From a virus, in IMG/VR virus record IMGVR_UViG_3300019764_000003, positions 1 through 42,459 of that record: a DNA stretch of 42,459 bases; one strand, given 5' to 3'. Positions 1,786-42,459 of this stretch are shown one piece after another; position 1 is the stretch's first letter; each line of letters starts with the position of its first letter. Made by a program: the position numbers and the translations under genes. The notes under the pieces were generated by a model. That model saw only the letters and a list, made by a program, of their open reading frames with translations, ran no database searches and was not told the DNA's origin.

Positions 1786-2655
1786 CTATGTTACCTGACC
1801 ATCAGGAGTTCGTTTGGATCTAATTTCGTTGTCCTCACCAGTCTCTTCTACTTTTAAATAGATAGTGTGTGTTTCATTATACGGTGTGTAAAGCTTATAG
1901 CTTCCTCCAACCAATGCCGATGATGTAGTAGTGTCGACTATAATACCTGTGGAGTCCTGCACGAGATATAACTCCCAAGACTGCGGCAATGAGTTAAACG
2001 TAACATCACCTTCATAGTAATAGGGTTCTGGTGTGCCTACTCTGTCAATGTACCCTACTTTTTCCGAGGAGCAAACATAGTCACAGAAGACGAAATTATC
2101 AAAAAGCACATTGCCTCCACCAATGGTTCCGCTGTAGGCAAAATTTCCACTTGCTATGTATGTTCTTTCTCTACTTATATTCTCAGGGTAATAAATATTG
2201 CTAGAGTTAATAATCGCTCCATTTTCATATTTAATTATATCCCCATTACTTGCATGCGTTATTGTTTCTGTAATGGCTTGCCCTAAGACAACAGTGTTCC
2301 CCGCGATTAAATAAGCCCCAGACGACGAATCCCTTATAACATAATTGGATGCACCAGTACTATAGGATAGGTATATAGACGATGTACCAATATCAGCAGT
2401 GTTGTAGGCATGAAAGTTCCTTGCGGAGCTGTAATTCTTACCCCACTTAGACCAACTAAAACCTATTGTATAGCCATCAGTAACGCCGTTAAAAAGGTCA
2501 GGCATACTTATGATTGCCCCTGCTCCTATAACCGACAGGTATGGGAGATTGCTATTAGGAACAGAAATCAATGTTGCGTTATTACCATTCCCACTAAGAT
2601 CTATTAGCGTTGTTCCACTCACATCCCGTGCTGTGTAGTGTGCAATTACTGTCAT
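1786..2655 (-). CDS. LamG/concanavalin-like fibre protein
   Basis: This is a 289-residue protein. The N-terminal segment HYTARDVSGTTLIDLSGNGN (about residues 6-25) matches the usual opening strand of LamG/concanavalin A-like domains, which often carry D-x-S-G-N-G-N-x-A-T-L. The sandwich covers about residues 1-215, followed by a smaller beta domain (about 215-280). Its ATG overlaps the stop of the upstream gene at 2652-2655, indicating translational coupling. It is probably a carbohydrate-binding fibre or appendage component. Confidence 0.6.
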   Translation of the reverse strand: MTVIAHYTARDVSGTTLIDLSGNGNNATLISVPNSNLPYLSVIGAGAIISMPDLFNGVTDGYTIGFSWSKWGKNYSSARNFHAYNTADIGTSSIYLSYSTGASNYVIRDSSSGAYLIAGNTVVLGQAITETITHASNGDIIKYENGAIINSSNIYYPENISRERTYIASGNFAYSGTIGGGNVLFDNFVFCDYVCSSEKVGYIDRVGTPEPYYYEGDVTFNSLPQSWELYLVQDSTGIIVDTTTSSALVGGSYKLYTPYNETHTIYLKVEETGEDNEIRSKRTPDGQVT

Positions 2656-3104
2656 GAACTCTCCATAATACTGCCCAAAGCTTCCTCAATACGAGCCATG
2701 TCCTCTTTAGTGTCGGCCGCTTCTTTTGCCGCATCTTTTGCCGCTTTACTACGTTTTGCCTTGGTTTGTTTTTCCTCATAGGCTGATGTGGCAATGAATT
2801 TATTAGCAGCGTCCGAATCAGATTCAACCAACTTCTTAATGGCGGCGGCTCTTTGCTTGGCTTGTATTTCCTGCACCATTAGTTCAACCCTGTCAGAAAA
2901 CTTCTTCAATCCTAAACAAACATTCCAAGTGGACCATCTTTGAGACTTAGGCACATGTGTTAGTAAAGATAAAGCAGCCTCATATCCAGTTATATCCCCC
3001 AACTCAACAAACTGTTCGTGGAACTGGTCAATATCATAAATAGAATTAGAATCAAAGAACAAACTGCCAGCGCCTCTTGGTCGTCCCCCCTTATTTTTAG
3101 TCAT
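2652..3104 (-). CDS. Candidate terminase small subunit (first gene of the late unit)
   Basis: This 150-residue protein begins MTKNKGGRPRGAGS. That basic GGRP opening is common in phage small terminase and DNA-binding proteins. The second half (about 95-150) is Ala/Lys/Glu-rich and predicted helical or coiled coil, which would suit oligomerisation. It is the first gene of the minus-strand structural unit; in circular order four genes separate it from the large terminase. No terminase-specific motif was found, so another DNA-binding protein remains possible. Confidence 0.4.
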   Translation of the reverse strand: MTKNKGGRPRGAGSLFFDSNSIYDIDQFHEQFVELGDITGYEAALSLLTHVPKSQRWSTWNVCLGLKKFSDRVELMVQEIQAKQRAAAIKKLVESDSDAANKFIATSAYEEKQTKAKRSKAAKDAAKEAADTKEDMARIEEALGSIMESS

Positions 3105-12115: not shown

Positions 12116-13264
12116 ATGCAAAAGGTAGCGGCGTTTGACTTCGAAACAACTAAGTTTCCTGATGCTGTTCCGTGGCAAACCAGAGCACGGCCAGTAACAC
12201 TACACATATTTGACGGCTCCAAACCAATAACATACACAGACTTTAACAACATAGACTTGTCAGAATATGATGTGCTTATTGCTGCTAATGCTAAGTTCGA
12301 TATGCACTGGCTCCAAGCATTGTCTATATCCTATAAGGAAGAAGCAATCTATTGTACCCAGGTGGCAGAATATATTATCAGAGGTAGCGACAACATGATA
12401 AACTATGACCTTGCTACGTGTTGTAAACGCTACAAAATTACTGATAAAATAGACAGAGTAAAACCCTATTGGGACAGTGGTATTGACACACCTGACATAC
12501 CAAAGAAAATACTAATACCTTACGGGGAACAGGACGCAGTGAACGCATATTTATTATGGCAAGCACAACAACCAATCATAAATAAGTATGGTCTTGAGAA
12601 AAGTATTAAGTTGGAAATGAGAACCATATCTTGTTTGTGTGACATTGAATCTAATGGTATGTTGGTGGATGTTCAGTTGTTTAAGGATCGCTCCGCTGCA
12701 AATAAAAAGCGCATACAAACAATAGAGCTTGACCTTAATGATGCTGTGGGTTATAATGTCTTGTGGTCCAGCAGTGATCAAGTGTCGGCCGCTTTGTTTG
12801 GAGGGACGATTAATGAAAAGTATGTAGAAACTTATTGGAAGGAACTCAAGTCTGGAAAAAAGAAGGCCACACGAAATGCTATTAGGGAAATAAAACTTGA
12901 TGGTATTTTTAAACCAGAACCAGAATGGGAAACAAAGAAGCCTGGTGTGTACCAAACTAATAAAGATATCCTTGTCCAAATTAAAGCCAAAGGTAAGAAA
13001 CAAAAGGCAGTGCTACAACTACTATTAGAATATAGTAAACTTAGCCAGGAAAATAAAACCTACTATGGCAACTGGGAACATGATGTTTGTTTAAAAGGTT
13101 GGCCCAGTTTTATTAGAGACGACGGACTTATCCACGGAAATATGAACCAAACAATAGCAACAACAGGTCGATTAACCAGCAGTCAACCGAATCAACAGAA
13201 CCTGCCAAGAGAAAAAGGAGGAGTGAAGAATGGAATCATCAGTCGTTATAGTGTATGCAATTGA
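12116..13264 (+). CDS. DNA polymerase family A, N-terminal part (3'-5' exonuclease and thumb)
   Basis: The 382-residue product starts with a DEDDy proofreading exonuclease: AFDFETT (Asp8, Glu10), KFDMHWL (Asp62) and YGEQD (Tyr136, Asp140). It runs through the thumb and ends in the conserved TGRLTSSQPNQQNLPRE segment, then GIISRYS. In a normal PolA this is followed within about eight residues by motif A, but here the frame stops at 13262. The palm resumes at 13673 after three small ORFs. The end of this part also contains the ribosome site and start of the first of those ORFs. Confidence 0.9.
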   Translation: MQKVAAFDFETTKFPDAVPWQTRARPVTLHIFDGSKPITYTDFNNIDLSEYDVLIAANAKFDMHWLQALSISYKEEAIYCTQVAEYIIRGSDNMINYDLATCCKRYKITDKIDRVKPYWDSGIDTPDIPKKILIPYGEQDAVNAYLLWQAQQPIINKYGLEKSIKLEMRTISCLCDIESNGMLVDVQLFKDRSAANKKRIQTIELDLNDAVGYNVLWSSSDQVSAALFGGTINEKYVETYWKELKSGKKKATRNAIREIKLDGIFKPEPEWETKKPGVYQTNKDILVQIKAKGKKQKAVLQLLLEYSKLSQENKTYYGNWEHDVCLKGWPSFIRDDGLIHGNMNQTIATTGRLTSSQPNQQNLPREKGGVKNGIISRYSVCN

Positions 13265-13397
13265 TCCTTGGGACGAACGCACAGTACTAAAGGTGTTTGA
13301 CACAGAAGAAAAAGCAATGGGCTACATAGCGTCACTACAAGAGGCAGAATCGGACGGACATTTTATTTACACATATGAGGAAAGGGCTGTTGAATAG
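13230..13397 (+). CDS. Small ORF 1 inserted in the polymerase gene
   Basis: A 55-residue ORF in another frame, with AAAGGAGGAG before its ATG inside the polymerase coding sequence. It contains VIVYAIDPWDERTVLKVFDT and ends in acidic residues. Codon pattern and overlap with the next ORF support translation. Function unknown; it resembles small phage accessory proteins rather than a homing enzyme. Confidence 0.6.
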   Translation: MESSVVIVYAIDPWDERTVLKVFDTEEKAMGYIASLQEAESDGHFIYTYEERAVE

Positions 13398-13483
13398 TGA
13401 AAATAACAGATAAAGATATCTGTCGGTGGGTTTGTGGTGTCATTAAAGCAGTAAACATACATGAATGGGAAGAGGAAGAATGA
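13397..13483 (+). CDS. Small ORF 2 inserted in the polymerase gene
   Basis: A 28-residue ORF from a GTG that overlaps the previous TAG by one base and ends in an ATGA overlap with the next ORF. It has an acidic tail (EWEEEE). Its size makes it uncertain, but the tight coupling on both sides supports it. Confidence 0.4.
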   Translation: MKITDKDICRWVCGVIKAVNIHEWEEEE

Positions 13484-13672: not shown

Positions 13673-14449
13673 GTGCCTATTATAGATGCTGACCTTTAGC
13701 TTAGCCAAATTGAATGGCGGGTGGCAGCTTATTTATCCCAAGACCAAACTATGATCCATGAAATTAACAACGGCATTGACCAACATGCAGCAGCTTGCGT
13801 TGATCTTATGGAAAGGGAACTAACAAAAGAAAATAGAAACGATGCAAAGATATTTAACTTCCGCATGATCTTTGATGGTAGCGCCTATGGGTTTTATGCC
13901 GATACAAAAATGCCCAACTTTTCTAAAAAGAAATGGGAGCTTATTGTTGATAGGTTCAAAGAAAAATACAAAGCCTTGTTCACCTATCACCAAAAGAATT
14001 TAATGGCAGTAAGAAGCAATGGAGGGTGGTTACGGGCAGAATCTGGACGCTACTATAGATTGCACAAACAATATAGAAAGGGTCATGGACAAGATTACAG
14101 CCCGTCTCAAGTGGCAAACAAGCTTATCCAGGCAATGGCTGCTGAGATTATGAAGTTAGCTATTATCCACATACGAAAAAGATTAGCCCATTTACCAGAA
14201 GTGTTGTTAATTAACCAGGTGCATGACAGTATTATTATTGATTGTCCTGAAAAACATGTTGACACAACCGCTAAAATTTGCTATAATACTTTTATAGAAC
14301 TGCCGCAGCTAATAGAAAAACATTTAACTGGAAAGCCTTTTAATGTTTTACTTGAAGGTGAGGTAGATGTTGGACCTACATGGGGAGAAGTAAAGCCGTA
14401 CATAGGGAGTAAAAAAGGCGAACCAATTTATATAAAGGAGAGTAATTAA
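13673..14449 (+). CDS. DNA polymerase family A, C-terminal part (palm/fingers) with in-frame TAG in motif A
   Basis: A GTG at 13673 has a near-perfect AAAGGAGGT six bases upstream and reads VPIIDADL, then TAG (13697-13699), then LSQIEWRVAAYLSQD. Motif A should read D-L-S-Q-I-E; the bases are GAC CTT TAG CTT AGC, so removing six bases restores it exactly. Downstream are a motif B-like segment (RNDAKIFNFRMIFDGSAYG) and motif C QVHDSIIID (Ser where Glu is usual, as in several phage enzymes). A start after the TAG (GTG 13721) would lack the catalytic Asp. TAG is a normal stop elsewhere in this genome. Confidence 0.8.
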
Positions 14450-42285: not shown

Positions 42286-42459
42286 AAGATTAAGGTATTT
42301 TTTAGTTTGGTTGTTTCTGTTAGTTGACCATCGATTGTTTCATAAGTTGGTGTTGTTAGTTCTGGATAGGCGGCCACTACTGATTCCCATGTTGTACCAA
42401 TGTATGTATTTACCATGCCAACATAGGCCACCGCATTAGGACCAAACTGATCACCACAA
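42282..42459 (-). CDS. Late-operon hypothetical protein, C-terminal part (crosses the circular junction)
   Basis: This frame is open from the right edge to TGA at 42282-42284. It repeats residues encoded at 1-123 and adds the final 18 residues (ending LKNTLIL) missing from the copy at the left edge. See the feature at 1-314 for the whole protein. Confidence 0.8.
   Translation of the reverse strand, partial: CGDQFGPNAVAYVGMVNTYIGTTWESVVAAYPELTTPTYETIDGQLTETTKLKNTLIL
42337..42459. repeat. Terminal direct repeat, right copy
   Basis: Exact copy of 1-123. The unique sequence therefore ends at 42336. See the left copy for interpretation. Confidence 0.95.

Follow-up and report, generated by a model that had tools for sequence, protein, structure and literature searches.

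Results

A split polymerase gene with a stop codon inside motif A

The stretch of DNA analysed here (the window), a virus record 42,459 bases long, carries a direct terminal repeat of 123 bp (positions 1-123 and 42337-42459), so the genome looks complete. No close DNA relatives of it were found in phages or in IMG/VR, and its family A DNA polymerase is divergent, with a best identity of 36% and a long branch on the tree. The gene for this enzyme (polA) is split, a feature that an initial annotation of the DNA did not report: the N part ends just before motif A and is followed by three small open reading frames (ORFs) and then by the C part. Family scans of most, not all, large ORFs revealed no second DNA polymerase in the window. 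An ORF at 16318-16917 matches a phage enoyl-CoA hydratase/carnitine racemase-like family (PHROG 1128, E 5e-7). The features of the locus are:

12116..13264, + strand: polA-N, a 3'-5' exonuclease-like region and the first part of the family A polymerase domain, ending ...NLPREKGGVKNGIISRYSVCN at its stop (Pfam DNA_pol_A 7e-15, DNA_pol_A_exo1 7.6e-5)
13230..13397, + strand: small ORF 1 of the N-C gap, 55 aa, weak DUF7336-like match, overlapping the end of polA-N
13397..13483, + strand: small ORF 2 of the N-C gap, 28 aa
13480..13668, + strand: small ORF 3 of the N-C gap, 62 aa
13658..13668, + strand: Shine-Dalgarno match of polA-C, 11 nt, AAAGGAGGTGA
13673..13696, + strand: 5' piece of polA-C (VPIIDADL), from the GTG start at 13673 to the take-off codon, including the catalytic Asp codon GAC at 13691-13693
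13694..13696, + strand: putative take-off codon CTT (Leu)
13697..13699, + strand: in-frame stop TAG
13700..13702, + strand: putative landing codon CTT (Leu), the same as the take-off codon
13703..14449, + strand: remainder of polA-C, SQIEWRVAAYLSQD... to TAA, motifs B and C intact (Pfam DNA_pol_A 1.4e-33 for 13700-14446)

Positions 13673-13714 read GTG CCT ATT ATA GAT GCT GAC CTT TAG CTT AGC CAA ATT GAA, with AGC at 13703, the Glu codon GAA at 13712-13714 and TGG (Trp) next, at 13715. Both upstream and downstream of the TAG the reading frame is open. The initial annotation had placed CTT TAG CTT inside motif A and had proposed that a six-base hop from the first CTT to the second would restore the canonical motif; the sequence and positions that it gave were exact, and the predicted hop product (VPIIDADLSQIEW...), when aligned to the E. 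coli Klenow polymerase, agrees with the proposal, in that the D of ADLSQIE is aligned with the motif A aspartate, the D of ADYSQIE. With the hop, the window has family A motifs A, B and C with their catalytic Asp (Pfam DNA_pol_A and the Klenow alignment), and only with it is motif A complete.

Two features of known bypass sites are present, namely matched take-off and landing codons (CTT/CTT) and a stop (TAG, 13697-13699) directly 3' of the take-off codon. The coding gap in the window is 6 nt and holds no stem-loop, and no stimulatory hairpin was found downstream of the site, where folding was no better than that of shuffled sequences (z +1.9), so no stimulator was identified. In the relative L199 the stretch folded from its 5' piece on was stabler than shuffles (z -2.5), which was not general.

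Motif A breaks recur among related polymerases

Related C genes were collected from IMG/VR, by protein search and by DNA patterns, and from genome contigs. Many of the broken loci were retrieved by DNA patterns built to match a length change, which biases the overall broken fraction upward. N and C genes are separate and divided immediately before motif A in MEP401, MEP402, MW202796, MW202697 and Alcaligenes phage vB_Af_QDWS535, and they lie within a few bases of each other or overlap in many relatives; in L413 the polymerase appears unsplit across the same point. Among the related split polymerases, 23 clusters have breaks in motif A (+1, +2, +4, +5, +6 or -1), and at every break the in-frame start reads the normal motif up to the break and a ribosomal shift would restore the rest. 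The breaks, by type, are:

+6, CTT TAG CTT: window; L199
+6, other Leu landings: L255 CTA TAG CTA; L056 CTG TAA CTG; L229 CTT TAG CTG; L212 CTT TAA CTG
+6, other landings: L172, L216 and L415 CTT TAG CCC; L201 CAG TAG CGG
+5: L414
+4: L171 group CTT T CTT; L182 CTT C CTT
+2: L189, L196, L190, L027, L165
+1: L032 CTT TGA C; L004 AAA A
-1: L162, L163

The site in related phages, a comparison that the initial annotation had suggested, thus shows a stop between Leu codons in the same motif at L199, L255, L056, L229 and L212. Across 19 tabulated loci with breaks of +1 to +6, D-x4-E-W is restored from an in-frame start in 19/19, a stop codon would occupy the A site in 14 and the landing codon is one for the take-off amino acid in 11. 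Leu is found at the landing position in six of the nine +6 lineages with Leu before the stop (p=6e-5 if random), an excess that an origin by duplication would also favour, and pairing would be poor at some landing codons (CTT to CCC, CAG to CGG). The break in the window sits three codons earlier in motif A than most others. No isolated phage with a break was recognised among the matches listed, the sole record with one, MW202697, being metagenome-derived. A tRNA-Leu(UAA) gene (L004:2972-3055) and a tRNA-Trp gene (L165:3843-3916) lie close downstream of two broken C genes; none was found in the other broken loci checked.

Breaks are concentrated at the motif. In the protein-search set, to which this count was restricted (~169 loci including the window), eight frame breaks fall within ~6 codons of motif A and one elsewhere in the C gene, over ~230 codons (binomial p=1e-12, or 5e-11 with the window left out). 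This tally excludes two inserts of intron type, in L166 and L167, at motif B of the C gene: that of L167 (3113-3478) has an Rfam group I intron match, that of L166 (~2330-3000) holds an HNH-like ORF and has no Rfam match, and motif A is readable in both. The only stop found outside motif A is a single in-frame TAA at residue 115 of the L114 C gene (ATGCCATAAGGTAGA), which is otherwise normal.

Broken polymerase genes are under purifying selection, with dN/dS of 0.03-0.13 downstream of the break in pairs that share a break type (L162/L163, dS 0.80; L189/L196, 1.17; L172/L203, 0.43; L171/L179, 0.34). On a tree of 90 proteins, a quick tree on which the placement of the window is unsure, 18 switches between the broken and the intact state are needed to account for the 20 broken tips, so breaks come or go repeatedly.

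Filled and empty sites outline an endonuclease cassette

Comparison of filled loci (L056, L179) with empty ones (L044, L052, L080) revealed that a left remnant of the old C gene, ATGCTACTACAAGCAGA, is kept before the endonuclease. In the filled loci, ATGCTACTACAAGCAGA follows the N gene. Next come a sigma70-like promoter and the endonuclease gene; a strong ribosome-binding site then precedes the rebuilt 5' end (ATGTTACTCCAAGCGGATGCAAAACAA), and beyond the break the old gene resumes (GAGTGG...). In L163, as in L056, the left junction is immediately followed by a sigma70-like promoter (TTGACA-17-TATAAT in L163), with the endonuclease gene downstream of it. L190 and L402 are 97.3% identical downstream; what sets them apart in the motif is two inserted bases along with synonymous changes, the left junction of L190 again falling after CAAGCAGA. 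In L212 the endonuclease ORF starts with the old C-gene start, MAIVNADAKS, from which the rebuilt copy differs synonymously in seven of eight codons. Synonymous change was in significant excess within the cassette-supplied 5' piece in four of five comparisons (e.g. 7/10 vs 14/70 for L172/L409, L172 having no endonuclease today). The insert lies at the cassette-target junction in L056, L179, L190 and L212; for the window, no empty-site relative was found. These comparisons show insertion of an HNH-endonuclease cassette within motif A in relatives; the C gene takes its new start and a recoded 5' piece from the right end of the cassette, and the break marks where this piece meets the old gene.

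A Shine-Dalgarno match of at least 5 nt precedes the C gene in 18/18 scorable broken clusters and in 32/126 intact ones (p=5e-10), which fits either a cassette origin or an offset for inefficient recoding.

Endonuclease genes often accompany the breaks

An endonuclease gene or a remnant of one, the hallmark of the mobA/gene 60 arrangement when it lies between the halves, occupies the N-C gap in 12/23 broken and 2/129 intact clusters (Fisher p=5e-10, a test that ignores ancestry). Phylogenetically independent pairs gave a weaker result, with five to seven for the link between break and endonuclease and none against (median p 0.03). PHROG 3322 / endonuclease VII-like proteins are encoded in the gap in L056, L162, L163, the L171 group, L182, L190 and L216; L027 has an HNH_3 protein, L414 a related one, L212 an endonuclease VII-like one and L201 what is likely a degenerate endonuclease fragment. 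The best PDB match of a predicted structure for the PHROG 3322 type was the HNH endonuclease PacI, at a weak E of 0.008. The remaining 11 broken clusters, the window included, have no endonuclease gene in the gap, and neither an endonuclease trace nor a left remnant was found in the gap of the window.

An intact motif A together with a gap endonuclease was seen only in clusters L339 and L341 and in L166; L166 has DARALEW in place of DAKALEW, and IGDAKQLEW is found in L339, possibly a form of resistance by substitution. The N-C gap of L255 (reverse strand) holds an ORF of ~200 aa that resembles RNA ligase and adjoins the CTA TAG CTA site, and a second insert with an HNH-like ORF lies deeper in its C gene.

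Discussion

A proposed hop over a probable cassette scar

The best reading of the window is a hop from CTT over TAG to CTT, and at this and all the other loci we infer the hop from the sequence. We put at roughly 0.7 the probability that ribosomes hop 6 nt over the in-frame stop and so rescue the polymerase from the scar of a former homing-endonuclease cassette in motif A. The enzyme would be made as two polypeptides, the catalytic part from polA-C, and the scar, consisting of TAG and the second CTT, would lie in motif A eight codons after the polA-C start. On entry of the stop into the A site, peptidyl-tRNA-Leu may leave the first CTT and re-pair with the identical CTT six bases on, with translation resuming at AGC to give DLSQIE.

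This scar most likely represents the right-hand junction of the former cassette. In relatives, the right end of the cassette rebuilds the start of the C gene, with a new, strong ribosome-binding site, a start codon and partly synonymously recoded codons, and this rebuilt start is joined to the old gene at a break of 1-6 nt, over which the ribosome would have to shift. The break and the recoding probably prevent the endonuclease from re-cutting its own genome, the kind of protection that has been proposed for T4 mobA and gene 60; the differences between L190 and L402 and the synonymous excess suggest that the two together would make the motif immune to the cassette endonuclease. Because the endonuclease is absent from the window and no trace of it is left, the cassette history of this genome is read from its relatives, by analogy with which the lineage probably once carried an endonuclease.

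Alternative explanations

The recoding may be real but regulatory, an inefficient step that sets the polymerase level and to which the endonuclease link is incidental. We consider this unlikely, though nearly half of the broken clusters (11/23) now have no endonuclease, the L032 break is a shift site known from the release factor 2 gene, and breaks are accompanied by strong ribosome-binding sites. Against such a role, ~127 intact clusters manage without a break, the breaks are quickly gained or lost and differ in type, and they lie at cassette junctions wherever filled and empty sites could be compared.

The initial annotation had named, as the dull alternative, a six-base duplication mutation or a sequence error; in such a case the break would be a loss of function or an assembly error in one genome, and there would be no functional hop. 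The window is indeed a single metagenomic contig with no close relative. However, ~23 clusters, drawn from two sequence collections, have differing breaks within the same handful of codons, with almost none elsewhere in the C gene, the +4 break was seen in four different metagenome samples, and dN/dS is ~0.1 downstream in break-sharing pairs. Given this recurrence in many samples and the purifying selection downstream, we see only a slim chance that mutation or error accounts for the site.

Reading of the TAG as an amino acid, by a suppressor tRNA or an altered code, is highly improbable, even though the TAG is in frame and the frame is open on both sides. As had been argued from the start, readthrough is no remedy: it would give D-x6-E spacing, and the inserted residue is put at the aspartate position. 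The 38 window ORFs of at least 100 aa end in TAA (28), TAG (5) or TGA (5), with no sign of extensions beyond TAG, a stop usage that indicates the standard code and rules out an altered one. No tRNA gene was found in the window, so a suppressor tRNA was rejected, and the frame-changing breaks of relatives could not be repaired by readthrough.

An intron between N and C, whose splicing would build the protein, was the possibility raised for MEP401/MEP402; here it has next to no chance of being right, even though phage polymerase genes can contain group I introns (L167 has one in its motif B region). An Rfam search gave no match anywhere in the window, the gap included, but did recover the L167 intron as a positive control, the N and C genes lie within a few bases or overlap in many relatives, and splicing out the gap would leave the TAG, which follows canonical motif residues.

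Significance and comparison with known systems

Beyond the hop in the window, we lean towards a broader reading, in which a widespread class of mobile phage cassettes enters an essential DNA polymerase gene at its catalytic motif and rescues it via a recoded 5' end and a 1-6 nt hop or frameshift. The class would have been gained many times, would include the first natural in-frame stop hops and would be a natural counterpart of engineered home-and-rescue drives, novelty being judged within the open-access literature. The bypass in T4 gene 60 has been called near-unique, and comparable, minimal candidate recoding sites are found here in ~20 lineages of phage polymerase, where they fall on the codons under the strongest constraint in the enzyme and often lie beside HNH endonucleases. 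They form a natural library of putative +1, +2, +4, +5, +6 and -1 shifts, including candidate in-frame stop hops, and the near-identical empty and filled alleles make the idea of bypass as protection against homing endonucleases directly testable. The breaks also explain how annotation would come to list such polymerases as truncated or broken.

The +1 frameshift site of the release factor 2 gene (prfB) is CUU UGA C. L032 has CTT TGA C in motif A, with the differences that no adjacent internal Shine-Dalgarno was seen and that the gene is another one; the window differs from prfB in that it would hop rather than shift by +1.

Bonocora et al. (2011) reportedly described the T4 gene 39 - mobA - gene 60 cassette with its 50-nt translational bypass. 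In that system an HNH endonuclease split gene 39, and the bypassed insert of gene 60 is thought to be protective against cleavage (PMC5009743, PMC3014915, PMC2988022). The resemblance to gene 60 that the initial annotation had pointed out is closer than it claimed, in that the relatives have a replication gene in two parts, with an HNH homing-type endonuclease gene separating them and a frame break at the junction. Both systems have an essential replication gene split by an HNH homing endonuclease, and a downstream half that has a non-coding insert, matched take-off and landing codons and a stop beside the take-off codon. They differ in the gene (polymerase here, topoisomerase in T4) and in the insert (1-6 nt here, 50 in T4), and the polymerase loci have no gap hairpin, several shift types and many origins, the window itself being without an endonuclease.

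In the stop hops of synthetic E. coli constructs, nine nucleotides made up of matched codons around a stop yield one amino acid (cited in PMC5009743); the window shares this layout and differs in being a natural sequence, and a 2016 review knew of no natural in-frame stop hop (PMC5009743). A split DNA polymerase was reported in MEP401/MEP402, where the authors suspected an intron (PMC10580990); like that of the window it belongs to family A and is encoded by two genes, with the division just upstream of motif A and a small ORF between them, but it has no break in the reading frame. Gene fission in Aeh1 nrdA-mobE and phage 25 gene 43 likewise places a homing endonuclease beside a split gene whose halves still work and, unlike the loci described here, comes with no recoding reported in the portions of the source that we draw on (PMC2988022). 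Finally, engineered home-and-rescue drives target an essential gene and carry its rescue, and it is this design that the phage cassettes resemble (PMC7968924).
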